This document shows, piece after piece, positions 26,016 through 38,514 of a DNA stretch of 64,000 bases (its first letter is position 1; every line of letters starts with the position of its first letter). The stretch spans positions 1-64,000 of the forward strand of contig CALCCF010000025.1 of assembly GCA_937899905.1 (NCBI GenBank), in the 5' to 3' direction. The notes under the pieces were generated by a model. It saw only the letters and a program-made list of their open reading frames with translations. It searched no databases and was not told the DNA's origin. The position numbers and the translations under genes were made by a program. The stretch comes from an uncultured Phycisphaeraceae bacterium (GTDB lineage: Bacteria > Planctomycetota > Phycisphaerae > Phycisphaerales > UBA1924).

Positions 26016-26414
26016 CTAGCTGACGATCGAGCCGGGGGGGAGATCCGCCAGTGGGCTGACGAGGGCAACCACGCGTTCCTCGGCGCCCTTGGCCGCGTCG
26101 CTGCCGGCCAGCAGCATGCCGCGGCTCTCTTCTCCGCGAAGCTGCCGCGGGGCGAGGTTCGCCACGATCACGATGCTCTTGCCCACGAGATCCTCGGGGT
26201 TGTAGAACGCCTTGACGCCCGCGCAGATCTGTCGCGGCGTGCCGCTGCCATCATCAAGCGTGAGCACGAGCAGCTTGTCGGCGTTGGGGTGGTCCTTGGC
26301 CTCGAGCACCTTCGCCACGCGAAGATCGACGCGGGCGAAGTCCTCGAAGACGATCTCGGGCTTGAAGGGTGATTCGGTCGGGCTCTCGGCCGCGGCGGGC
26401 GACGCATCGGTCAT
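26016..26414 (-). CDS. Stand-alone tRNA-binding (EMAP/Trbp111-like) domain protein
   Basis: This 132-residue protein starts at ATG 26414, with CAGGAG ahead. After a 20-residue Ala/Pro/Ser arm it is a single OB-fold: FARVDLRVAKVLEAKDHPNADKLLVL, ICAGVKAFYNPEDLVGKSIVIVANLAPRQLRG (in two parts) and ESRGMLLAG. This matches the C-terminal domain of methionyl-tRNA synthetase and the free proteins Trbp111/CsaA that bind tRNA. No MetRS catalytic domain is fused or adjacent. It could serve as a separate beta subunit of a short MetRS encoded elsewhere. It lies downstream of the ExbBD operon, 49 bases after it. Confidence 0.85.
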   Translation of the reverse strand: MTDASPAAAESPTESPFKPEIVFEDFARVDLRVAKVLEAKDHPNADKLLVLTLDDGSGTPRQICAGVKAFYNPEDLVGKSIVIVANLAPRQLRGEESRGMLLAGSDAAKGAEERVVALVSPLADLPPGSIVS

Positions 26415-26463: not shown

Positions 26464-27513
26464 CTATGAGCCGGGACGCGACCCTTCTGGAGCCGGTGCT
26501 TCTGTTGGGTCGGGTTCCGCTTCGGCCTCGGCGGCGAGCCATGCACCTTCACGCCACAGCCGACGCGAGGCATCCACGCCATACCGAGCGGCGAGCGAGT
26601 CGGTCACGCGATCGGGATCGGGATCGAGCAGCGGCGCTCCGCCGTCGGCCGCGATCTGCGCACCCCAGCTCTGCTGGATGCCGCGGAGCAGCCGGCTCTC
26701 GAACCGCAGATGGTTCAGGAACTCCTCCTCGCTCAGCGGTGGGCCGGGGTTGCCGCGGCATGTTGGGCAGACGAAGGCCTCAACGCCATCCTCGCCGCGT
26801 CGCATGATCATGCGTGAGCCGCCGCACTCCAGGTCGGGCCAGTCGCGCAAGGCTCTCTCGAATCGGCTGAGACCGCTCAGTCCGCCACTGCCGCCGAGCA
26901 GCCCGCCATACCGCTCGAAGACCTGCCTCACGGCCGGGTTCTCGTAGAGCCGCCGCGCTCGCCGGCCCTCGCCAGAGCGCGCTAGCCCGAGCGCGTTGGC
27001 GGCGTCGAGCGCGACCTGCGGCGAGACCGACACGCTGACCAAGCTCGAATTGCCGCCCATCGCAGCGCGCGGGTCGAGCAGGCTCGCGACCGCGACCATC
27101 CACGCCGAGCCGTCATCGGTCGGCTCAAGGGCGGCCAGTCCGAGGCAGGCTCCGACCATGATCTCTGGCCGCGCTCTGGTCGCTCGCTCGAGGTCGTACG
27201 CAACGGCATACAGCTGGCGCGCAAGGTCCCGGTCCTCGCGTGATCCGGTCTCCGAGGCGACCTCTTCGGCGAGCTCGAGGTAGACCACCGCGTCCGAACC
27301 GTCGAGCGCGGTGAGGCGATCGCGCAGGTTGGCCACGCGATCCATCGCGGTGGTCCACGCTTCGCTTCGCGAATCTGCTTTGGACTCCGGCTCGGGCGCG
27401 GGTGCTTCGGGCTCTGGCTCGGTCGGTGATGGGTCGATCGGCGGCGCCAGCTCCTGTCCGAGCGTCGCGTGGCAGGCGATGAGCAACGCCAAGATGGTCC
27501 ACGTGTACCTCAT
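26464..27513 (-). CDS. Exported protein of the ExbBD/VWA operon, with a small CxxC motif
   Basis: This is the last gene of the operon, 349 residues, ATG 27513 overlapping the upstream stop as ATGA. A signal peptide (about 1-19, LALLIACHATLGQ) is followed by a Pro/Glu linker, a helical TPR/Sel1-like region (about 50-200) and a C-terminal part. The latter has LECGG about 16 residues before VCPTC, a possible metal or disulfide site. The tail is again acidic and Pro-rich. I do not recognise the family. The position suggests an envelope component made with ExbB, ExbD and the two large repeat proteins. Confidence 0.6.
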   Translation of the reverse strand: MRYTWTILALLIACHATLGQELAPPIDPSPTEPEPEAPAPEPESKADSRSEAWTTAMDRVANLRDRLTALDGSDAVVYLELAEEVASETGSREDRDLARQLYAVAYDLERATRARPEIMVGACLGLAALEPTDDGSAWMVAVASLLDPRAAMGGNSSLVSVSVSPQVALDAANALGLARSGEGRRARRLYENPAVRQVFERYGGLLGGSGGLSGLSRFERALRDWPDLECGGSRMIMRRGEDGVEAFVCPTCRGNPGPPLSEEEFLNHLRFESRLLRGIQQSWGAQIAADGGAPLLDPDPDRVTDSLAARYGVDASRRLWREGAWLAAEAEAEPDPTEAPAPEGSRPGS

Positions 27514-30341
27514 TGAGGACCTCCTGCCGTCGCTTCGGACAGACGCCAGACCCAGATGCGCAGTCGGGTTCGCTCGGTGATGGCGATCTGCTCGAGCACG
27601 CCGCGCGCCTCGCGACGGGCTTGCTGCATCGCGTCGAGCTCGTCGCTGAGGCGTAGGGCCACAGCCGGGCGCTCGCCGGCCGCGTTGTAGAGCTCGATCT
27701 CGGTCAGCGCCGACTGGTACGCCGCGAAGAACTGTACTCGCCCGCTTGCCAGTCGTGTGCGTCCCGCAAGCCGGCGATCGACCTCGCCGGGCGACCACGG
27801 CCACACTGCCGGTGGCACGAGCCGGTCGGCGCGTTGGCGGGCGCGCACCCATGCGGCTTCGGCGGCAAGCTCCGCGGGCGTGCGATCGCTGGGGGCAGCC
27901 GCCCCGCTAGCCGCTGAGACGTACGCATCGCCGATGGCCTGCGCAGCACGATCGATGCGCGCCAGCTCACCCTCGGCGGCGAGCAATTCGAGCAGCGGCT
28001 CGACGAGCGCGCGTCGAGCGACCAACTCCCATGAGTCGCCCGAAGGTAAACGCACTGCCGTGACGTTCTCGACCATCTGCCGTCGCCGCGGCTCGGCGCC
28101 CGGGAGTGGGAGTGTCTCGAGCACGGCCGCGACGACGACGGGCTTGTTGGCATGCGAGACCAGGATGTTGCCCGCGCGTTCGCGGATGCCCACCGTCGAG
28201 CCTCGCACGAATGCCTGGGCGACGAGTTCGGCCTCGGCGGCGTGGGTTGGGCCGCTGCGGCTGAGCGCCTCAAGCAGATCGAGCTTGAGCTCGGGCCGGC
28301 GCTGCTGGTTGTACCGCAGCGCCCAGTCGCTGGGTTGGCTATGGCTCGCGCGGTAGATCGACTCGGTGCCGGTTGCAGCTCGGCGTTGCCCCGCGTCCAG
28401 CCCGTCGCGCAGCTGCAGGAGCACGACGTCGGCGTCGTTGGCCAGGCCCTGCCACAGCAGATCACCCGCCGCGATGAGCCGGGCCGAGACGGCGGCGTCG
28501 ACGGCCTGGTCGACCTGCGTGTTCGAAAGCTCGGCGCCAAGGTGGCGTCTCGCTTCGCTCAACCAGCGGTTGGCGACGGCGCCGTGGGCCATGGCTGATT
28601 GCACGTTCCATGCGGCGGCGAATCGATCGCGGACCTGTGCCCGTTGCGACTGGCTGGCGAGCACTGGCAGCACCATCGTCGCGTCGACGCCCGCTGCGCT
28701 CGAGGCGGTCGCGAGCACGTTCGTGACCGCGTGCAGGTCGGCGATGGTCACGCCAGGATCATCGAACCACGCAAGCACACGCGGGCGGCTCTCGTCCTCG
28801 GCCCGCCACGGCAGCGCAACGACCAGGCGGCGCACGATCTGGAAGATCCGTTCGTCGGTGGGTTCGGGGCCACGCAGCAGCACCGCCTCGAGCGCCGCGA
28901 GCATGAGCCGCCGCGCCAAGACCGGCTCGCTCTCTTCCAAGCCCTGAGCGCACACCAGCCACGGTGTCCAGGACTCCGGGTCGGCGTCGAAGTTTTCAGC
29001 CTCGCTCAGCGCGGCCAGCTCGGCGCGCAACGCCACGGCAACGCCGCCGATGAAGTCGCTCGACGCGCGCGCCTCGATGGGCGCCTCTTGTAGCAGGAAC
29101 ACGCGCAGCGACTCCGCGATGGGTCCGGGTAGGTCCTGTTCTTGCGAGAGCCGCACGATCGCGCCCACCTGCCACGCGCGCGCGGCCATGCCTGGCTCTC
29201 CACCGGTTTCGGCGATTGGGCCGGTCAGAAAACCGACGAGTTGCCGAGAAGCCGTCGAATCCTCGCGGACCAGATACATGTGATCGATGATCAGGCCGAG
29301 GGCGGCCAGGCGGCGGTCGGGCCGGACCCTGGGCCAGTTGTCGGCTAGGGTGAGCACGGCCCGCTCGAAGACAGCCTGTGCGGTGGCCTCGCCCTTGCGC
29401 TGCCGATCGGCCGCGAGGCGTAGGTCGGTGACGATCGTGTCGATGCGTGTGTCCGGTGTAGCAGCACGCGGTTGCGTCGCGCCCTCGGCTTCCTGAGACG
29501 CGCCGGCGTTGCCCTTGGGTTGTCCGTCGGACGGCTGCGGCTCCGCGGTCGCAGCGATCGCGCTCTCGCCGTCCTCTTGCTGGGCGATTTGCTGGGCGTT
29601 CTGCCCCGAGGTCCGCATCACCGGGATGGCGATGAGCACCGCGGCGGCGGCGACGAGCGTGAGGATCACCGCGACGGCCATCGCGCCCAGCAGCGCCATG
29701 TCGCCCCCGGAGCGATCGGCGGTGTGGGACGGGATGGAGGGCAGTTCGCCGCCCGGTCCGGGGGCGGCCACAACGCCATTGCTCTCGCTCTGTTGGGATG
29801 AGATCGCCGGCCCGCTCCTGCGCGCGAGCCGCGTGAGCGCCACAGCCAGGTCATCCGCACTCAGCCCACGGGCGTGGGCAAGCATCGTGAGGTGCCGCAT
29901 CGTGGTGGAGTTCCAGCCGCCGTGCGCGCCCAAGGCCAGTACCGCGTCCTGCTGCAGCGCCAGCTGGGCCGGCGGGAGCGCGGTGGGTCGGGTCCATCGA
30001 GCGGGCAACTCCGCTTCATCGTCGTCTTGCGATGCAACGTCGTATGGTCGGCGACGCCCCCCGAGGAGCTGAGCGGCGGCGGCGTGGAGCGCGAGCCTTG
30101 CCTCGTCGCCGAGTGGTGTGCCACCGTAGCGGTGGGCGTTGACCATCGCGAGGCGCGCGTTGAGCGCGTCGACGCTCTCGCCGTCGTCGGTGTTGGATGC
30201 GTCGACGCCGAGCAGCGCGGCCGCGTCCGCATTGGGCGCGAGTCCGAGTATCCCAGCGATCGCCGCCTCGCGCGGCGTTGGCCGAGTCCCGCCTGACGGC
30301 GGCAGCGGCGGTGGGGGTGGCTGGGATTCCCGACGCGTCAT
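27510..30341 (-). CDS. Large membrane protein with J-like N-terminus and helical-repeat extracytoplasmic part
   Basis: This 943-residue protein starts at ATG 30341 (ATGA overlap with the gene before it). Residues 1-20 are Pro-rich. Residues 25-100 form a helical bundle with LLGVDASNTDDGESVDALNA, a conserved-looking NAHRYGG and LALHAAAAQLLG, a layout recalling a degenerate J domain without its HPD. A single transmembrane helix is near 215-242. About 650 residues of helix pairs like TPR or HEAT repeats follow, presumably periplasmic. No enzyme motif is seen. It is part of the ExbB/ExbD/VWA operon and could be a scaffold between cytoplasm and envelope. Confidence 0.65.
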   Translation of the reverse strand: MTRRESQPPPPPLPPSGGTRPTPREAAIAGILGLAPNADAAALLGVDASNTDDGESVDALNARLAMVNAHRYGGTPLGDEARLALHAAAAQLLGGRRRPYDVASQDDDEAELPARWTRPTALPPAQLALQQDAVLALGAHGGWNSTTMRHLTMLAHARGLSADDLAVALTRLARRSGPAISSQQSESNGVVAAPGPGGELPSIPSHTADRSGGDMALLGAMAVAVILTLVAAAAVLIAIPVMRTSGQNAQQIAQQEDGESAIAATAEPQPSDGQPKGNAGASQEAEGATQPRAATPDTRIDTIVTDLRLAADRQRKGEATAQAVFERAVLTLADNWPRVRPDRRLAALGLIIDHMYLVREDSTASRQLVGFLTGPIAETGGEPGMAARAWQVGAIVRLSQEQDLPGPIAESLRVFLLQEAPIEARASSDFIGGVAVALRAELAALSEAENFDADPESWTPWLVCAQGLEESEPVLARRLMLAALEAVLLRGPEPTDERIFQIVRRLVVALPWRAEDESRPRVLAWFDDPGVTIADLHAVTNVLATASSAAGVDATMVLPVLASQSQRAQVRDRFAAAWNVQSAMAHGAVANRWLSEARRHLGAELSNTQVDQAVDAAVSARLIAAGDLLWQGLANDADVVLLQLRDGLDAGQRRAATGTESIYRASHSQPSDWALRYNQQRRPELKLDLLEALSRSGPTHAAEAELVAQAFVRGSTVGIRERAGNILVSHANKPVVVAAVLETLPLPGAEPRRRQMVENVTAVRLPSGDSWELVARRALVEPLLELLAAEGELARIDRAAQAIGDAYVSAASGAAAPSDRTPAELAAEAAWVRARQRADRLVPPAVWPWSPGEVDRRLAGRTRLASGRVQFFAAYQSALTEIELYNAAGERPAVALRLSDELDAMQQARREARGVLEQIAITERTRLRIWVWRLSEATAGGPQ

Positions 30342-33031
30342 GGCGCGTCCTCGATGGCCGAGGGCGGCACCTCGACTCCCATCTCGAGCGATTCGAGCAG
30401 GTCCGCCAGTCGCGTCGCCCACGGCTCGGGCGTGTCTGGAAAGAGCAGTAGGTGCTGGCGGAGCACATCGATCGCACGCGGACGATTTTCGGCTGCGAGC
30501 AGTCGAGCCGACTCGAACCGTGCACGCAGCGCCATGCCCGAGCCCTCGGGCGCTCCGCCGAGAAGGCGTCGCCACGCGTCGAGCGCGTCGCCGGGTCGGC
30601 CGGCGAGCTCGGCTGCGTACCCGAAGCGCACCAGCGAGAACGCGTCGGCGACACCGGCGTTCACCATCCGTCCGTCGATCGTGAAGACGAGGTCGAGGTT
30701 GGTCCGCCGGTCTTGTTCGCGATCCTCGTAGCGGGCCAGCATCCACGCGGCGCGGGCAACGGTCGAGTGCACGCCGAAGGCTTGAGGGTTGCCCAGGGTT
30801 GCGTTGTCGCTGCCGATCTCACCGATCACCAGGCCGCCGAATTCGACGACGTCTCGGGCGAGTTGCACGTCGCCCGGGTTCTGCTGGAATCGCTCGGCCG
30901 ACCAGGTGTACAGCGCACGATTGGCGAGCGCGGTGAACGCGCCGCTGTCATCGTCGAACGTCTGGGCGATGCGTCGGGCCGCTCGCGCATCGTCCTTGGC
31001 GAGCGCGACCTGGATCTGGCGGAAGGCGATCTCCGACTCGATGTTCGCCGGAGGCGCGCCAACACGAATACGCAGCTCTTGCACCACCTCCAGAAGTTGT
31101 TCCGCCCTGGCGATGTCGGGCACCGGGGAGCCCAGGATGACCTGGAGCATGGCGCGGGCAAGGGCCAATGCGCGGTCGGCCGACTCCGAGGCCGCGTCGA
31201 GCGATCCCATCGCCGCCCGGCGGCGCTCGAGTGCGAGCAGCTCGTCGGCCACCGTGAGGTACCGCAGCGATGTCGCGGAACGGGCGTCACCGGTCAGTCG
31301 GCGGATCCGTGCGTACAGCAGCCGCTCGGCTCTGCGGCGTGCGGCTTCGTACAAGGGTGAATCACGATCGACGCGCAGCAGGATGTCGATTGCCTCGGCA
31401 TCGCTCGTCGAGCCGGCACCGGCGCGAGCGACCAGCAGGCGTGCGGCCCGCTCGGTTCCAGGGAAGCTCTGGAGGTAGAGCGTCACGAGCCGGTCGCGCC
31501 GTGCTTCTTGCCCGTTGTTGCCTCGCCGGATCGCGGCATCGAGCGCGACGATCGCGTGCCACAGTGCTCGCTCGGATTGCTCGGTATCGTCGGCCGTGCT
31601 GTGCGTCTTCTCGAACCGCTCGGCGGCGTCGAGCAGCTGTCCGCTGAGGTATGCCGCCATCGCGGCCAGTAGCATGGCCTGCGATTGCTCTCGCGGATAC
31701 CTGCGAGCATCGGTCGCGTCGAGTGCTGCGTCGAGCGCGCGCACGGCTTCGGCGTACAGGTTCGCGACGGCGTCGCTGCTCGCGATGGCGCCCTCTTCGT
31801 GGCCCTCGGCCTTGTACGCCTCGGTTGCGCGTTCGTAGGCATTCTGGCCGCGCACATACGCAAAGATAAATCCCTCACCCTCAAGCGATGCGGTGCCAAA
31901 CTCCTCGACCAGTGAACGCAGCACCTGCACCTGGTCTTGCCGCACGAGGTCTTGAATGGCCGCGTGGGCGATCTCCTCGAGCACGGACCGATCACGAGGA
32001 ATCAGCCGCTGGTTCGTGAGCGCTTCCCACGACACGTGCGCAAGCAGGTGCGATTCGAGTGGTTTGAGACCGTCTTCGCCATCGGCTCGCCGGGAGCGAC
32101 GTCGGATGTCGCTCTGGAACGCGAGGTCACGCCATCGCTCGGCCTCGCCGAGCACGAGCAGCTGGCACACGAAGAGTCGATCGCGGATCGCTTCGGACAG
32201 CGTCGGTGCGTTCTCGATCTTCTCGAGCCAGCGCAGGGCCGTATCGGCGTTGCCCAGGAACGACTCGCAGAATGCCGAGGCGATGGCCGAGTCGGCGACG
32301 TGGTCGAACCGCATCATGCGTTCGTCGGCGCGCTCGACGCTGGCCGCGCGGTTGTCTTCGGCGCCCAGGATCACGCCGAGGTCCTTGAGGGCATCGCTGG
32401 CGAAGCGTTGGCTGCCGGTCATGACGGCGAGGTAGTACCGCGTCCAGCCCAGAAGGTAGTGTGCGGTTGAGCGCACGCGCGAGGCGGTCTCGAGCGCGAC
32501 CTTCTCTTCTTCCTCGAGGCCGACGTTCACGCGGCGTCGATTGAGGCGATAGGCCGCGTCGGTTGCGTGCTGGGCAATGGACGAGAGCTCGGGCACGAGC
32601 CCCCGAAGCGTGCGCTGGGCTTCTTCCAGCTCGTCCGCTGGCACGGCGCTCAGGCGGGCACGTTCGGCGATCTCCTTGGCCCACTGGTACTGGGCGCGGA
32701 CGAGCGCGAGCCGGAGGTCGCCCGCGGCGTCCTCTGGGATCTGCCTGACCAGTCGCCGGCCGAGCTCCTCGAGAACCTGCCGTTCCTCGCTCGTCGTGGC
32801 GAGTTCGAGCATCTCGACGTACAGCTCCGCCAGGCGATCGGCGATGGGCTGGCGATCGTTCACACCCGCAGACTCGAGGCGAGAACGCAGGTCCGCCGCC
32901 TCGACCTCGCGCAGCTCGAGCCGCTGGAGGTACTCGCCGAAGCGGTCCTCTGCGTCCTGGGCGCACGCGAGGCCCGCGGTCGTTGCCAGTGCGAGGCTGC
33001 TCGCCAGGATGGTCCTAGTCCGCCGGTACAT
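30338..33031 (-). CDS. Large exported TPR-like protein of the ExbBD/VWA operon
   Basis: I choose ATG 33031 (897 residues), which has AGAGGA close upstream, rather than TTG 33046. A signal peptide (about 1-25, ending GLACAQ) is followed by continuous helix-turn-helix repeats across the whole chain (for example ARRIAQTFDDDSGAFTALAN, EAARRRAERLLYARIRRLTG). They have the Ala/Leu/Arg spacing of TPR/solenoid proteins. There is no transmembrane helix after the signal and no catalytic motif. Its start overlaps the second ExbD gene by 17 bases, and its end overlaps the next gene by 4. It probably acts as a periplasmic binding platform. Confidence 0.65.
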   Translation of the reverse strand: MYRRTRTILASSLALATTAGLACAQDAEDRFGEYLQRLELREVEAADLRSRLESAGVNDRQPIADRLAELYVEMLELATTSEERQVLEELGRRLVRQIPEDAAGDLRLALVRAQYQWAKEIAERARLSAVPADELEEAQRTLRGLVPELSSIAQHATDAAYRLNRRRVNVGLEEEEKVALETASRVRSTAHYLLGWTRYYLAVMTGSQRFASDALKDLGVILGAEDNRAASVERADERMMRFDHVADSAIASAFCESFLGNADTALRWLEKIENAPTLSEAIRDRLFVCQLLVLGEAERWRDLAFQSDIRRRSRRADGEDGLKPLESHLLAHVSWEALTNQRLIPRDRSVLEEIAHAAIQDLVRQDQVQVLRSLVEEFGTASLEGEGFIFAYVRGQNAYERATEAYKAEGHEEGAIASSDAVANLYAEAVRALDAALDATDARRYPREQSQAMLLAAMAAYLSGQLLDAAERFEKTHSTADDTEQSERALWHAIVALDAAIRRGNNGQEARRDRLVTLYLQSFPGTERAARLLVARAGAGSTSDAEAIDILLRVDRDSPLYEAARRRAERLLYARIRRLTGDARSATSLRYLTVADELLALERRRAAMGSLDAASESADRALALARAMLQVILGSPVPDIARAEQLLEVVQELRIRVGAPPANIESEIAFRQIQVALAKDDARAARRIAQTFDDDSGAFTALANRALYTWSAERFQQNPGDVQLARDVVEFGGLVIGEIGSDNATLGNPQAFGVHSTVARAAWMLARYEDREQDRRTNLDLVFTIDGRMVNAGVADAFSLVRFGYAAELAGRPGDALDAWRRLLGGAPEGSGMALRARFESARLLAAENRPRAIDVLRQHLLLFPDTPEPWATRLADLLESLEMGVEVPPSAIEDAP

Positions 33032-33425
33032 ACGTCCTCTTGACAAAGCCTGCGTCGAGCGCGTCCTGCATGACGCCGGCGACGGCCGACCACGGTGCCC
33101 GATCGGTCACGCGCACGAACAGGCCGCCCTCTTTGGGTAACTGTTCCAGTGCGGCGGCGAGCGCTTCGCGATCTGGGAACACACGCGTTCCAAGCCGGTA
33201 CGACACGCCGCCATCGACGAGATCGACCGTCACGATCTGGGGACGCAGGTCGCGCTGCTGGCCCGCTCCGCGCTCGCCCTGTAGCGTCGACGCCACGCGG
33301 CTCTCGGGCGGGCTGATGGTCGCCGTAACCATGAAGTAGATCAGCAGCAGGAACACAACGTCGATGAGCGGGGTCAACGGGAGGTCGCCGACATCGTCGC
33401 GGTTGGATCGTGGCCGAACGCGCAT
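33015..33425 (-). CDS. exbD: ExbD/TolR-family protein (second copy)
   Basis: This 136-residue protein starts at ATG 33425. A short basic N-terminus is followed by the single transmembrane helix with the ion-pathway aspartate, LPLTPLIDVVFLLLIYFMV. A periplasmic domain follows, with the ExbD-type VRVTDRAPWSAVAGVMQDAL near the end. The helix keeps the Asp (near residue 20) used in proton translocation. It lies 4 bases after the first exbD gene and overlaps the next gene. The short form is typical of ExbD/TolR. Confidence 0.9.
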   Translation of the reverse strand: MRVRPRSNRDDVGDLPLTPLIDVVFLLLIYFMVTATISPPESRVASTLQGERGAGQQRDLRPQIVTVDLVDGGVSYRLGTRVFPDREALAAALEQLPKEGGLFVRVTDRAPWSAVAGVMQDALDAGFVKRTYVPAD

Positions 33426-33429
33426 GGCC

Positions 33430-33858
33430 TTATCCTCGCCCGGAGCGGTCAACAGTGGCGTGGCTCCACTGGCGAACACCCATTCGTGTGAGTTGGCGTG
33501 CGAGTTCGTTCACCGGGCCGGCCGCGGTGCCCTGGTCGGCTCGCAGCAGCACGCGGACGTTCTGTGGCCCACCAAGACGGTCCGCCTGCTCTTCCACGAT
33601 CTCGATCACGCGTTGCAACGAACGATCGCGGCCGTTGACGAGGAAGACGCCGTCGGCGCGAACATCGATCAGGAGCGCGTCGGGATCGCTGGCGACGTCT
33701 CGCGCGCCGGGCTCGTCGGGAAGGTCCACGCTGGTGCGGCTGACCTCGGCAAACCGCGCCGTGTAGAGGAAGAAGATGATGACAAGCAGCACGACATCGA
33801 TCATCGGCGTCATGTTGACGCCGAATCGGGTGCGGGCTGGCTTGCGTCCCAGGAGCAC
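33430..33858 (-). CDS. exbD: ExbD/TolR-family protein (first copy)
   Basis: I place the start at GTG 33858 (142 residues), which has AAGGAAGG about 7 bases upstream and lies just beyond the exbB stop; the longer frame to 33933 would overlap exbB. The motif FGVNMTPMIDVVLLVIIFFL contains the transmembrane aspartate. The periplasmic domain has VRADGVFLVNGRD and VRVLLRADQGTAAGPVNEL, as in ExbD. It differs clearly from the second copy, so this is a heterologous pair, as in some TonB- and gliding-type motors. Confidence 0.9.
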   Translation of the reverse strand: MLLGRKPARTRFGVNMTPMIDVVLLVIIFFLYTARFAEVSRTSVDLPDEPGARDVASDPDALLIDVRADGVFLVNGRDRSLQRVIEIVEEQADRLGGPQNVRVLLRADQGTAAGPVNELARQLTRMGVRQWSHATVDRSGRG

Positions 33859-33874
33859 TTCGGGCCTTCCTTGA

Positions 33875-34678
33875 TTACGTTGCGGCAGCCGCCGGCGCAG
33901 CCGGGCGTCCGGCGGGGCTCGGCGCCTGCCCACCGGCGGGCTTCGAGGCCTGGATGCGCGCGGCGAGTTCCTCGGTCAGCTCGGCCGTGTCTTGGGCGAG
34001 CGAGTCGACTCTGTTCCGGAAGAAGCTGTGCAGTGCCGTGCTGGGGATGGCGACGATGAGCCCGAGCACGGTCGTGATCAGCGCAACGGAGATGCTCGAG
34101 GCCAGCGCCTCGGGCCGCACGCCCTCGCTGACGCTGAGTGTCTCGAACGCGCCGACAAGGCCGACGACCGTGCCCAGAAGGCCGAGCATCGGTGCGACGG
34201 CGGCGATCAGGCCCATCGGGTCGGTCTTGCGTTGCAGCTTCGCGAAGCGCTCCTGGCCGGCTTCTTCGAGGGCCGATCGCAATTCGAGCAACCCAAAGGG
34301 TGAGCGAAGGCAGCGTGTGAGCGCCGAGGCGAACATGCCCGCCAGCAGGCAGCGATTCTCCTCGGCCTGGCAGAACGCGAGTGCCCCGCGGACGTCATTG
34401 GCCGCCAGCAATCGATCGAGCCCCTCGACCACGCGCGGCGGCGCGATGCGTGTGAGACGGATCTCCGCGGCCAGCCAAACTGCCATGAGCACGGCCGTGA
34501 AGGACAGCAGGATGATCACGATGCCGACCGGCCCACCCGACAGGATGTGTTGGAGCAGCGTCTTGCCCTCGTCGGGCGTCGATGCTGCGGGAGCGGCTTG
34601 GGCCAAGAGCGCGCCGGCATCGGCGGCCTGCGCGGCAAACGTCGAGAGATGGGCGATGGCGCCCACGGCAGCACTCAT
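33875..34678 (-). CDS. exbB: ExbB/TolQ/MotA-family proton channel protein
   Basis: This 267-residue protein starts at ATG 34678 (ATGA overlap with the gene before). A hydrophobic N-terminal segment is possibly a signal. The first main helix is about 50-72 (GPVGIVIILLSFTAVLMAVWL), and the cytoplasmic region 75-155 precedes the two channel helices: PMLGLLGTVVGLVGAFETL (about 155-180) and SVALITTVLGLIVAIPS (about 190-210). The GLLGTVVGL motif with its Thr is the ExbB/TolQ hallmark. The C-terminal tail is Ala/Pro-rich. With the two ExbD proteins it should form a proton-driven motor. Confidence 0.92.
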   Translation of the reverse strand: MSAAVGAIAHLSTFAAQAADAGALLAQAAPAASTPDEGKTLLQHILSGGPVGIVIILLSFTAVLMAVWLAAEIRLTRIAPPRVVEGLDRLLAANDVRGALAFCQAEENRCLLAGMFASALTRCLRSPFGLLELRSALEEAGQERFAKLQRKTDPMGLIAAVAPMLGLLGTVVGLVGAFETLSVSEGVRPEALASSISVALITTVLGLIVAIPSTALHSFFRNRVDSLAQDTAELTEELAARIQASKPAGGQAPSPAGRPAAPAAAAT

Positions 34679-35856
34679 GGTGAGCCTCCATCGGTCGCAG
34701 AGTCGTCGCGCTGCCCGGGGGCAGGCGTGTCTGGCAAAGAGCCGTCGAGCAACTCGGCCAGTCCGGGCCACGATAGCACCTGGGACCGAAGGCCAGGCGC
34801 GGCCTGTTCGCTTGAGAGCTCCTTCACCAACGCGCTCGCGGCATCGCGTTGGCCGAGTGCGTGCAGCGTGGCCGCCGCCTCGGCAACGCAGATGTCGGCC
34901 AGGTGCGGCGAGCCCGCTCGGTGCAGCACGTGGACACGGAGCAACTGGGCGACTCCGCGGAGACGATCCTCTTCTGCGGCCTCGAGCACGAGCGATCGCC
35001 CGATGGCCGCCAGGATCCAGGCTTCCATCCACGGCGTCGATGCGCTCGTGAGAGCCGATTCGAGCCGTGCCCGCGCGCCGGCTCGAGCATCGTCATCGAG
35101 CACGCGGGCGGCCACGATGTCGCGAACGAGTTCCACCGAGGCTTCGCGTGGTACGTCGGGGAGCGTGTCGACGCGCTGGCCCAACTCGTGGCGGGCGGCC
35201 GCTTGGTAGAGCACGCGCATGGCGGTGGCCTTGTCGCGCTCGCCCTCGGTCGCCTCGAGTTGCAGCACGAGCGTCAGCGACGGCGACGCGAGCCAGATCG
35301 GCGGCAGCTGCGGGCTGAGTTCGGAGGATGGGTCGATCGCAGCCGGCAGCCCGACGTCGGTCGCCCACGCGCGATTCGCGAACGTCGTGCGCGGCTGGCG
35401 GACGATCGCGGCGTCGAGCCACGCGAGCCAGGGCTCGATGGCCGCTGCCCCAGCACCGCGCGCAAGGCGGCACCGCAGCAGCCCCTCGGCAACAACCAGT
35501 CCGGTCGGTCCTCGGAGCTGGCGTCCCTCGGCCTGTGCAGCCTCAAACACGGCTTGGAGCAGCGGCTCGGCGAGGATGAGGTCGCCGCGTTCCATGCGCG
35601 TCCTTGCGCGCCATGTGTCGACGGCGAGCCCTTGGAACGGATCAGCGGCCTCGCGGAGCGCTGCCGGAACGGCGAGCACGCGATCCCAGCCTACCACGAC
35701 CACGTCTCCCTGCGGAGACCGCACGCGCACGCCCTGCGGCCCGACGCCCATGGCCTGACCGGTGGGGGGTTGCTCGAAGGCGCGCAACACGAGCGCGTCG
35801 TCCTGGCAGAGGGCGGGGGCTGTGGCGATGAGCACGAGTGCGGTCGCGAGCCTCAA
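34675..35856 (-). CDS. Exported helical-repeat protein of the ExbBD/VWA operon
   Basis: This 393-residue protein starts at TTG 35856, overlapping the VWA stop as TTGA, with GAGGG 6 bases ahead. The signal peptide is MRLATALVLIATAPALCQ. A short beta-strand region (about 30-65, GVRVRSPQGDVVVVGWDRV) precedes about 300 residues of TPR-like helices. The C-terminus is Pro/Asp-rich. It has no identified catalytic motif. By position it belongs to the ExbB/ExbD machine. Confidence 0.6.
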   Translation of the reverse strand: MRLATALVLIATAPALCQDDALVLRAFEQPPTGQAMGVGPQGVRVRSPQGDVVVVGWDRVLAVPAALREAADPFQGLAVDTWRARTRMERGDLILAEPLLQAVFEAAQAEGRQLRGPTGLVVAEGLLRCRLARGAGAAAIEPWLAWLDAAIVRQPRTTFANRAWATDVGLPAAIDPSSELSPQLPPIWLASPSLTLVLQLEATEGERDKATAMRVLYQAAARHELGQRVDTLPDVPREASVELVRDIVAARVLDDDARAGARARLESALTSASTPWMEAWILAAIGRSLVLEAAEEDRLRGVAQLLRVHVLHRAGSPHLADICVAEAAATLHALGQRDAASALVKELSSEQAAPGLRSQVLSWPGLAELLDGSLPDTPAPGQRDDSATDGGSP

Positions 35857-36851
35857 CGCGGACCCTCGACGTGCGTGTACGTGCCGCGGGTGGCCGACGC
35901 GATGCGACGCATGACGGCCTCGCCCTCGCGGCTGCGGAAGGTGATGCAGTGGATCGGGATGCCCGTGCGGCGGAACATGCCCAGGATCTGCTCGGCGTTG
36001 TCCTCATGGAATTCGCCGTCGGTCATGAAGTAGATCGCGTCGGGCTGCGGATCGAGCATGGATACGAGCTGGAACCCCGGCAGCGGGTTTGTGCCGCCCT
36101 CGGCGCGAGCGTCGAGGATGTGCGCTCGCGCCCAGGTCTTCCCGCTATCGGTTGCCTGCGCCCACACGACGCCTCGGTCTCCCAGCGGCCGTGCGCCGGA
36201 GTTGAAGAACGCGACGAAGAAGTCTGACGAGCTGAACATGCCCGAGATCGAGCCGATGAGCTCCTGCTGCATCGAGCCCAGCCGCCCGTCGTTGACCATC
36301 GAGCCCGAGGTATCGACGACGAAGGCGAACCGGTTGCCGCGCGCCTCGACGCCGAAGAAGCTCGCGCCGGATCCCACGCTGTCTCCGACACCGAGGCCGA
36401 CGCCCTCAAGGTCGCCGCCGCCGAGTTGGAGCGTGACTTCGCCCGTGGTGTCGGCTAGCTCGGACATATCGATGTCCAGCGCGCCGAGGTCAATCTCAGC
36501 CTGGACCTGCAACGCCGCGCTCGCCGACTCGGCGTCCGGGGCCTCGAGTGCGAGTTCTTCGGCGGCGATCTCGGCCAGCTCGGCATCGGTCATGACGGCG
36601 AACTCGACCTCGGGCGCGCCCGAGCCGAGCTGGGCCACCGGCTGGTTCATCTGGATCAGCGCCGCAATGAGCAGCACGACCACGTGCACGAGCAGCGAGA
36701 CCGCCGCACTGCTGGCGACCAGGGGCACCTTGTGGCGGTTGACCCACGCGAGCACGCCTGGGGCCGGGTCTCGCTCGCCGCCCGGGCCGATCGCCGCCGG
36801 CCCCCGTTGGTCGGTCGTCGGCTGTGGTTGGTCGTGGTGTTCTGGCTGCAT
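35853..36851 (-). CDS. VWA-domain membrane protein, first gene of the ExbBD operon
   Basis: This 332-residue protein starts at ATG 36851. It has a Pro/Gln-rich cytoplasmic N-terminus, one transmembrane helix (about 44-66, VASSAAVSLLVHVVVLLIAA), an acidic Ala/Glu region, a Gly-rich linker and a von Willebrand A domain. The metal-site motif DTSGS is at 180-184, preceded by FFGVEARGNRFAFVV, a common planctomycete VWA lead. Later MIDAS parts are seen as GGTN (Thr) and MTDGEFH (Asp). VWA domains bind protein ligands through a divalent metal. As a first gene it may be the sensor or clamp of the motor encoded downstream. Confidence 0.85.
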   Translation of the reverse strand: MQPEHHDQPQPTTDQRGPAAIGPGGERDPAPGVLAWVNRHKVPLVASSAAVSLLVHVVVLLIAALIQMNQPVAQLGSGAPEVEFAVMTDAELAEIAAEELALEAPDAESASAALQVQAEIDLGALDIDMSELADTTGEVTLQLGGGDLEGVGLGVGDSVGSGASFFGVEARGNRFAFVVDTSGSMVNDGRLGSMQQELIGSISGMFSSSDFFVAFFNSGARPLGDRGVVWAQATDSGKTWARAHILDARAEGGTNPLPGFQLVSMLDPQPDAIYFMTDGEFHEDNAEQILGMFRRTGIPIHCITFRSREGEAVMRRIASATRGTYTHVEGPR

Positions 36852-37133: not shown

Positions 37134-37895
37134 ATGCCCGCCACCGATCAGACCGACGCCGAAACCAAGCCCGCGGCCTCCGGCGAGGGGCCGACGCGGC
37201 TGCTGCTCAAGCTCAGCGGCGAGGCCTTCGGCAAGGCGGGCTCGGGCGTCGATGCGACCCTGTTGATCGATATCTGCAAGGAGATCGCCCAGGCCACCAC
37301 GCTCGGCGCCCAGTTGGCCATCGTCGTTGGAGGTGGCAACATCATCCGCGGCGCGCAGCTCGCCAAGGCCGGCCTCGTGCAGCGTGCGACCGCCGACCAG
37401 ATGGGCATGCTGGGCACCGTGATCAACGCGCTGGCGTTACGAGAGGCGCTGAGTTCGGTGGGCGTCGATAGCCGCGTGATGAGCGCCGTCGAGATCAGCG
37501 CGGTGGCCGAAAAGTTCATCCGAGGGCGAGCCATCCGCCACCTTGAGAAGGGCCGCGTGGTCATTCTTGCGGGTGGCACTGGCAACCCGTACTTCTCGAC
37601 TGACACCTGCGCCTCCCTTCGCGCGATGGAGCTCGGTTGCGACGCGCTGCTGAAGGCCACCAAGGTCGACGGCGTGTACACGGCCGACCCGAACGTGGAC
37701 ACGACCGCGACGAAGTTCGACCACCTGACCTTCGCCCAAGCCATCGACAAGGGCCTTGGAGTGATGGATATGACCGCGCTGGCCATGTGCCAGGAGCACG
37801 ACATGCCGGTGGTCGTGTTCGACTTCCAGAAGACAGGCAACATCGCGGCGGTCATCCGCGGCGAGACCATCGGCACCCGACTTTCCGTGCGATAA
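37134..37895 (+). CDS. pyrH: Uridylate (UMP) kinase
   Basis: This 253-residue protein starts at ATG. An N-terminal extension of about 20 residues precedes the kinase core: LLLKLSGEAFG, IVVGGGNIIRG, ADQMGMLGTVINALAL, FIRGRAIRHLEKGRVVI, GTGNPYFSTDTCASLRA and KATKVDGVYTADP. PyrH phosphorylates UMP to UDP with ATP as a hexamer. It is followed by frr, the standard bacterial order, although rpsB and tsf are not upstream. Confidence 0.97.
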   Translation: MPATDQTDAETKPAASGEGPTRLLLKLSGEAFGKAGSGVDATLLIDICKEIAQATTLGAQLAIVVGGGNIIRGAQLAKAGLVQRATADQMGMLGTVINALALREALSSVGVDSRVMSAVEISAVAEKFIRGRAIRHLEKGRVVILAGGTGNPYFSTDTCASLRAMELGCDALLKATKVDGVYTADPNVDTTATKFDHLTFAQAIDKGLGVMDMTALAMCQEHDMPVVVFDFQKTGNIAAVIRGETIGTRLSVR

Positions 37896-37941
37896 ACGCG
37901 CCGTCGTCGGTGCTCCACCCGACGCATTGGAGGACCTACCC

Positions 37942-38514
37942 ATGTCGACCGACCCCGACACGATCTTGCTCGAAGCCGAGGACGCCATGGAGAAGGGCGT
38001 GGAGTACCTCAAGCAAGAGCTCCGCGGCGTGCGCAGCGGCCGGGCCAGTACCGCGCTCATCGAATTCCTGAAGGTCGAGTACTACGGCGCGAGCACCGAG
38101 CTGAAGGCCCTTGCGGCGATCAGCGTGCCCGAGCCGACGCAGCTGCTCATCAAGCCCTTTGACCAGGGCGCCGTGGGCGACATCCGCAAGGCGATCGAGG
38201 CGTCGAACCTCGGTCTCACGCCTGTAGTCGAGGACAAGTCGATCCGCATCAATGTGCCGGCGCTCTCGGCCGATCGTCGCCAGCAGCTCGTCGCCCGGTG
38301 CAAGAAGATGGGCGAGGACACCAAGGTCGTGCTCCGCAATGCGCGTCGAGACGCCAACAAGCACGCCGATGCGCTCGGCAAGGGTGACGGTGCCCACGTT
38401 TCCGAGGACGAGATCAAGACCCTCAAGGACGAGATCCAAGAGCTCCTCAAGAAGCATGAGGCCGAAATCGATCAGCGTATCGCCGAGAAGAGCAAGGAAG
38501 TGCTGGAGGTCTAA
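37942..38514 (+). CDS. frr: Ribosome recycling factor
   Basis: The start is ATG 37942 (190 residues), 8 bases after GGAGG. Typical blocks are EDAMEKGVEYLKQELRGVRS, GRASTALIE, YYGASTELKALAAISVPEP, LTPVVEDKSIRINVPAL and RNARRDANKH, ending in a long helix. Frr splits post-termination ribosomes with EF-G. It follows pyrH by 46 bases. The stop overlaps that of the convergent AraC gene in CTAA. Confidence 0.97.
   Translation: MSTDPDTILLEAEDAMEKGVEYLKQELRGVRSGRASTALIEFLKVEYYGASTELKALAAISVPEPTQLLIKPFDQGAVGDIRKAIEASNLGLTPVVEDKSIRINVPALSADRRQQLVARCKKMGEDTKVVLRNARRDANKHADALGKGDGAHVSEDEIKTLKDEIQELLKKHEAEIDQRIAEKSKEVLEV

Follow-up and report, generated by a model that had tools for sequence, protein, structure and literature searches.

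Organization of the locus

The window, the whole stretch of 64,000 nucleotides that was analysed (contig CALCCF010000025.1 of an uncultured Phycisphaeraceae bacterium), carries on its minus strand, from 36851 down to 26464, eight genes arranged head to tail. The row had been proposed by a sequence-only reading of this DNA and was confirmed on re-derived starts together with its tight junctions: at the predicted starts, five neighbouring pairs overlap (by 4, 4, 17, 4 and 4 bases) and two are separated by gaps of 16 and 4 bases. The genes are listed below from first to last; their start codons and signal peptides are predictions made by reading of the sequence.

VWA protein, 35853..36851, minus strand: 332 aa; transmembrane (TM) helix, linker and VWA domain; proposed force transducer
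TPRs, 34675..35856, minus strand: 393 aa, TTG start; predicted exported; short N-terminal segment followed by TPR-like helices
ExbB/TolQ-type channel subunit, 33875..34678, minus strand: 267 aa; Pfam PF01618, 8.9e-27
ExbD1/TolR-type subunit, 33430..33858, minus strand: 142 aa, GTG start; Asp21 in the TM helix
ExbD2/TolR-type subunit, 33015..33425, minus strand: 136 aa; Asp22 in the TM helix; differs from ExbD1
TPR1, 30338..33031, minus strand: 897 aa; predicted exported TPR-type solenoid
TPR2, 27510..30341, minus strand: 943 aa; membrane-anchored solenoid by AlphaFold2 model
CxxC protein, 26464..27513, minus strand: 349 aa; predicted signal peptide, helical repeats and a small Cys-containing, zinc-ribbon-like part

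Only three of these proteins pass the Pfam cut-off, namely ExbB (PF01618, 8.9e-27) and the two ExbD proteins (PF02472, 2.5e-18 and 8.9e-13). Matches below the cut-off were obtained for the VWA protein (VWA_3, 2.7e-4), TPR1 (ARM_TT21, 0.0078) and the CxxC protein (a zinc ribbon, 0.067), and the window copies of TPRs and TPR2 have no Pfam match. Upstream, at 37134-38514, lie divergently oriented pyrH and frr genes, named by reading of their proteins. In L155 and L160, two loci of relatives described below, frames resembling pyrH and frr likewise adjoin VWA, so the position of the locus is old. Directly downstream and on the same strand, a small tRNA-binding-domain protein (26016-26414; MetG C-terminal or CsaA-like by reading) was left outside the operon.

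Conservation and distribution of the gene row

Comparison of gene order in relatives, which the sequence-only reading had named as a check on its proposal, was carried out and bore the proposal out: 33 of 40 fetched regions contain all eight genes in identical order. Another five hold VWA-TPRs-TPR1-TPR2-CxxC without the three motor genes, and in the last two a contig end interrupts a row that agrees as far as it is visible. These regions were drawn from 46 TPR1-positive genomes, leaving out the window's own genome (G000), G011, G013 and G014 (short loci only), G022 and G042. The gene order is conserved beyond chance.

In a profile search TPR1 was found in 46/61 genomes, distributed as 36/37 in the window's family and 10/24 in other families of the order, counts that reflect an imperfect sensitivity, as G054, scored negative, shows a TPR1 with another profile. 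The single negative genome of the family is 81% complete. When 298 genomes were drawn from the class as a whole, TPR1 matched in 81, including 27/27 in the window's family and 16/20, 2/2, 2/4 (partial and weak) and 0/12 in other families of the order; outside the order there were 34 weak partial matches (best 2.7e-15), with 197 unmatched genomes assumed from kinship ordering to lie outside it.

The VWA gene reaches further than the complete row. Among 80 loci, kept out of 125 relatives in a VWA search, 15 have the eight-gene form, three the five-gene form and two VWA-TPR1-TPR2-CxxC; in 12 the row begins collinearly but is shorter, in some because the contig ends, and the remaining 48 have VWA accompanied by a smaller number of the other genes or standing alone (33 loci). 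In 18 genomes picked for having no full-length TPR1 (one from the window's family, the other 17 from elsewhere in the order), the VWA profile matched in 18/18, in some to the VWA domain alone, and 13/16 regions fetched from this set combine VWA, often in two copies, with ExbB-ExbD-ExbD. In more distant loci, VWA and ExbB are separated by a frame of 354-502 aa, and the two ExbD genes are followed by one of 837-978 aa (seven loci in each case; starts unsure). Two loci from another family of the order (L247, L248) have a tandem pair of VWA genes and, behind a single ExbB gene, three ExbD genes.

The ExbB/ExbD motor

The earlier statement that ExbB and ExbD retain the transmembrane Thr and Asp required for proton use held in 58/58 loci. 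Among 58 ExbB sequences (56 distinct), S59 in TM1, T170, T203 and the TM3 proline P212 are each present in 58/58, as are Asp21 of ExbD1 and Asp22 of ExbD2 in their TM helices; the channel Thr and axle Asp of known ExbB/ExbD 5:2 motors are therefore present throughout. In an alignment with solved structures, T170, T203 and P212 fall on the TolQ channel. That alignment begins at residue 145, with TM1 outside it, so for S59 we can only infer equivalence to the docking TM1 Ser. Other ExbB types of the same genomes share S59 and P212, which thus indicate a TonB/TolQ-type channel rather than a private partner. A TM1 Trp is also named in the available portion of the literature; the TM1 Trp of the window ExbB, W68, is kept in 7/58.

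The VWA protein as a candidate force transducer

The VWA protein has one predicted TM helix (about aa 44-68) bearing Ser52-x3-His56 and a VWA domain with a full MIDAS (D180, S182, S184, T254 and D278); the family profile matches a VWA domain in a search against solved structures at 4.7e-13. In TonB and TolA the motif Ser-3X-His-6X-Leu-3X-Ser is described, in the accessible part of the source, as contacting TM1 of ExbB/TolQ through its Ser and His (PMC12905483). Ser52 and His56 are found in 68/68 operon copies (66 distinct; two pairs are identical), comprising 58/58 with ExbB in the locus and 10/10 without; every other helix position stays at or below 43/68. The five MIDAS residues (DSSTD) are likewise kept in 68/68. 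The Leu and the last Ser of this SHLS motif are not kept (A63 and Q67 in the window; commonest Ala, 43/68, and Val, 13/68). Since the helix carries the TonB/TolA docking Ser-x3-His in all operon copies, the VWA protein is probably the transducer and, as far as these residues can tell, a likely TonB/TolA-type partner of the motor.

Relatives outside the operon indicate that the alignment does not impose the motif, as it is missing in some VWA proteins without TPR1 in the locus: Ser-x3-His was found in 13/16 of these with ExbB and 23/35 without ExbB, the negatives including some truncated proteins and some with a different helix. In the TPR1-lacking regions of the order, inspection by eye found Ser-x3-His in most VWA proteins, the exceptions being Ala for Ser in both VWA proteins of L253 and one of L250, Asn for His in L254, and VWA proteins without such a helix in L251 and L262. 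Two further VWA proteins (L179, 2522-3685; L187, 9218-10525) have, ahead of the helix, an N-terminus that by reading resembles a zinc ribbon.

The sequence-only reading had found neither tonB nor tolA and no gene for an energy-consuming receptor. By sequence family the former stands: none of the eight operon proteins matches TonB_C in Pfam, or TolA, TolB or Pal in Pfam and NCBIfam, beyond one weak TolA match, that of NCBIfam TIGR02794 to the N-terminal VWA helix (aa 49-111 of the window protein, E=0.02; 2/29 family members match). It needs qualifying in that the VWA gene carries the docking Ser and His of TonB/TolA, and the absence of an energy-consuming partner is not supported, as the VWA protein is a fitting candidate for the transducer.

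TPR and CxxC partner proteins

Family alignments provide what the window copies lack in domain matches, with TPR_12 matching 5/24 members of the TPRs alignment (A5; best 1.2e-5) and TPR_2 matching 7/20 members of the TPR1 alignment (A4; best 7.9e-6). In two loci, both without motor genes, TPRs and TPR1 form one protein: in L155 it has 1237 aa, with the TPRs profile at 32-369 and the TPR1 profile at 404-1214, and in L160 it has 1188 aa, with the profiles at 28-345 and 385-1178. This natural fusion supports the prediction that TPRs and TPR1 touch each other. In the same two loci the match to TPR2 begins at profile position 82-102, and the last protein has lost its CxxC pairs and retains two isolated Cys.

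The AlphaFold2 model of TPR2 (mean pLDDT 75.4, pTM 0.39) shows a helical N-terminal region (aa 20-175), a predicted TM helix (215-237), a low-confidence linker (238-296) and an alpha-solenoid (298-935) placed in the periplasm; the N-terminal region would be cytosolic. A fold search with this model returned generic ARM/HEAT-type solenoids only, with TM-scores near 0.1. A J-domain at the N-terminus of TPR2, considered for its helix pattern and an LLGL...HP...LLDP-like consensus, was rejected after DnaJ in Pfam matched 0/18 members.

The exported CxxC protein of the sequence-only reading does contain CxxC, and its window copy proves to have three of the four family cysteines, the first being missing; two CxxC pairs are present in 10/10 aligned relatives (A3). 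The Cys-containing part lies near aa 227-252, and a fold search with the model of this protein gave no match at E<=0.001. Its assignment as a lipoprotein, from LIAC in the window copy, was discarded, as the feature is not conserved among the relatives compared.

Motor-less loci and relocated motors

Ten loci lack the entire three-gene motor block and keep the VWA Ser-x3-His (10/10); in the eight of these with separate TPR genes, 29-113 bases lie between TPRs and TPR1 at inferred starts. On a quick TPR1 tree, from which two contig fragments (L015, L035) were left out and in which two loci on cut contigs (L061, L070) were unscored, the absence of the motor requires six changes, at least five of them on well supported branches. 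Judged by gene content, the motor is a separable block of the operon.

All ten genomes with a motor-less operon have an ExbB-ExbD-ExbD triple at another site. Five of these genomes (G018 and those of L134, L139, L155 and L160) have an operon-type ExbB located elsewhere, falling inside the operon-type clade of the ExbB tree with support 90/91. These five and the operon copy of G034 form one group (98/94), and their TPR1 proteins do not group in this way, a disagreement that hints at a motor cassette moving independently of the other genes. In the other five genomes (G010, G021, G025, G035 and that of L142) the triples found belong to a paralogous stand-alone type; G010, G021, G025 and G035 are drafts of 92-98% completeness, and in all five an operon-type motor could be missing from the assembly. 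The ExbB trees were built on chosen rows, and the divergent ExbB proteins of G035 (C35) and G021 (C1) were placed only in a poor tree.

A triple away from the operon was seen in 8/11 genomes, including the window's own (L116, on C32). Among six genomes with an operon motor, three have a second triple (G000, G016 and G019) and none is shown for G012, G020 and G034; a second ExbD pair occurs in at least 18/36 genomes. The paralogous triple is thus also common where the operon motor is present, so its presence by itself is no argument that a second triple compensates for motor loss. Second triples stand at L116 and L121-L124, several of them preceded by genes that by reading are TsaE- or ThiL-like.

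TonB in the same genomes

TonB and TolA are the textbook routes by which proton energy reaches the outer membrane. TonB_C was found in 17/61 genomes, distributed as 3/37 in the window's family (two weak, one strong) and 14/24 in the others. The strong match of the family lies in the window's own genome (contig C111, 1590-1796; 5.3e-15; a 108-aa frame). The six same-genus relatives of that genome have no TonB_C, and C111 could be a contig from elsewhere. A further question raised by the sequence-only reading was whether a TonB partner for this motor is strictly co-inherited elsewhere. Within the family it is not (TonB_C in 3/37, TPR1 in 36/37); outside the family the result is less clean, 7/10 TPR1-positive genomes also having TonB_C. 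These genomes, together with the window's own, indicate that the operon and TonB can coexist, and VWA is therefore not a simple replacement of TonB.

Comparison with known systems

In contrast to TonB-ExbBD and TolA-TolQR, with which it shares the proton-path Thr and Asp, the Ser-x3-His hub, the TM3 Pro and a TM1 Ser, the operon has a VWA domain in place of the TonB/TolA C-terminal domain, two unlike ExbD proteins and TPR partners, and its helix lacks the Leu and the last Ser of SHLS. A closer counterpart is the family of vWA force transducers predicted in 2025 for PVC bacteria, including Planctomycetes, with TPR, tolQ and two tolR genes; in the available text, its authors describe the function as unknown and the phenotype as unreported (PMC12204202). 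Common to both are a VWA protein with a TonB/TolA-like helix, a nearby TPR gene, a tolQ-like gene and two unlike tolR-like genes. The window protein has the N-terminal TM helix with Ser and His, the linker and the VWA domain with MIDAS, without the Leu and last Ser, and its gene neighbours include a TPR gene, the tolQ-like gene and the two tolR-like genes, which differ from each other. By helix residues and neighbourhood, the operon core of VWA, TPR, TolQ-like and two TolR-like genes matches these predicted transducers. The arrangement described in the available text names one TPR gene and puts VWA downstream of the motor genes, whereas the window operon begins with VWA and includes four proteins that are exported or anchored (TPRs, TPR1, TPR2 and CxxC).

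A motor and pulling arm of this type had therefore already been proposed, as far as the accessible text of PMC12204202 tells, so the operon is not new in kind and its earlier description as undescribed is not supported. The accompanying idea of a proton-driven motor tied to VWA and TPR proteins is strengthened by the invariant proton-path residues and the conserved order. Motor loss, relocation and TPR fusion are absent from the available text of that paper on vWA force transducers, the string "Phycisphaer" is absent from its main text, and no description of the eight-gene operon was found in open-licence literature beyond its related arrangement. As far as the literature was searched, the fixed eight-gene form, the absence or relocation of the motor block and the TPRs-TPR1 fusion are new.

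The same paper describes, in its available part, a second vWA family that likewise combines VWA with a TolQ-type channel and differs in a pore helix with its own Asp, no Ser/His of SHLS and no TolR/ExbD, where the operon has two ExbD genes (PMC12204202). Zorya defence was considered and set aside: ExbB weakly resembles ZorA (7.8e-4), and the other seven proteins gave nothing at E<=0.01.

Proposed mechanism and alternatives

The data presented above have led us to favour, with somewhat better than even confidence, a model in which the operon encodes an envelope machine that draws its power from protons and transduces force in the manner of TonB and TolA. What the sequences themselves show is the set of parts, the fixed order of the genes, the conservation of residues for docking and proton passage, and a motor that is separable from the rest; from these we infer docking, force, direction, ligand and cell function. 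Five ExbB subunits would surround an axle of ExbD1 and ExbD2, a stoichiometry taken from known 5:2 motors, and protons would flow along the path of ExbB Thr and ExbD Asp. The VWA TM helix would dock on the outer face of ExbB by Ser52 and His56, probably against Ser59 of TM1, and the linker would cross the periplasm, allowing the metal-binding VWA domain to grip a ligand. TPRs, TPR1, the TPR2 solenoid and the CxxC protein would form the periplasmic load or adaptor pulled by the VWA domain. The role of such a machine may lie among envelope tethering, surface transport and uptake; the roles offered by the sequence-only reading, namely surface structure, uptake or membrane remodelling, stand as guesses.

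The composition of the motor also recalls Agl-Glt of Myxococcus xanthus, in which, according to the accessible parts of the sources, one TolQ and two TolR proteins work with exported TPR proteins (PMC3169522) and the Agl motor is encoded apart and swaps between Glt and Nfs (PMC3858216). Equal motor make-up, several exported TPR proteins and a separable motor are thus common to AglRQS-Glt/Nfs and the operon, and the motor here could drag a trans-envelope TPR scaffold for gliding or deposition of a surface polymer, with VWA as an adhesion or cargo part and not a TonB-like lever. We consider this unlikely: the invariant Ser-x3-His suggests docking of the TonB/TolA type, and none of the eight proteins has a Pfam match to an OmpA-like or autotransporter-type outer-membrane domain. 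A further difference from AglRQS-Glt/Nfs is that the VWA protein here is anchored in the inner membrane. The ten motor-less loci, in which the other genes stay together, might instead mark the latter as co-expressed secretion or folding factors, with the motor serving a separate partner; this is very improbable, however, given that Ser-x3-His is kept in all ten and that each of their genomes has an ExbB-D-D triple elsewhere.

A machine that tethers the outer membrane or draws it inward during division, performing the task of TolA through the VWA domain, would agree with the rarity of TonB_C in the family (3/37) and with the spread of VWA and ExbB-D-D through the order, including families without full-length TPR1 (13/16 regions). 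Such a replacement of Tol-Pal has little probability in our estimate, as TolA could escape a sequence-level search, Pal and TolB are not matched within the operon, and OmpA-type domains, which may or may not be linked to it, are present in 61/61 genomes. Returning to the TonB/TolA-type machine, a more specific and rather tentative form of it, doubtful as it stands, is that VWA-TPRs-TPR1-TPR2-CxxC might be a complete, motor-independent force chain that uses interchangeable ExbB-ExbD-ExbD cassettes (its own, relocated or paralogous stand-alone) and carries out TonB/TolA-type coupling in one Phycisphaerales family where TonB_C is rare. If true, the five-gene chain would place PMF-driven envelope machines with a load of solenoid scaffolds in a class of their own, a new one.

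The operon supplies a fixed list of parts and named residues to change for the predicted VWA-based alternative to TonB/TolA. Natural experiments, in which the motor is absent or relocated while the docking motif persists, or in which the TPR proteins are fused, make it possible to test the vWA transducer prediction, and to do so in bacteria whose envelopes have received little study. In the accessible part of an expression study in Rhodopirellula, exbB/exbD were salt-induced, without a link to VWA (PMC2754498).
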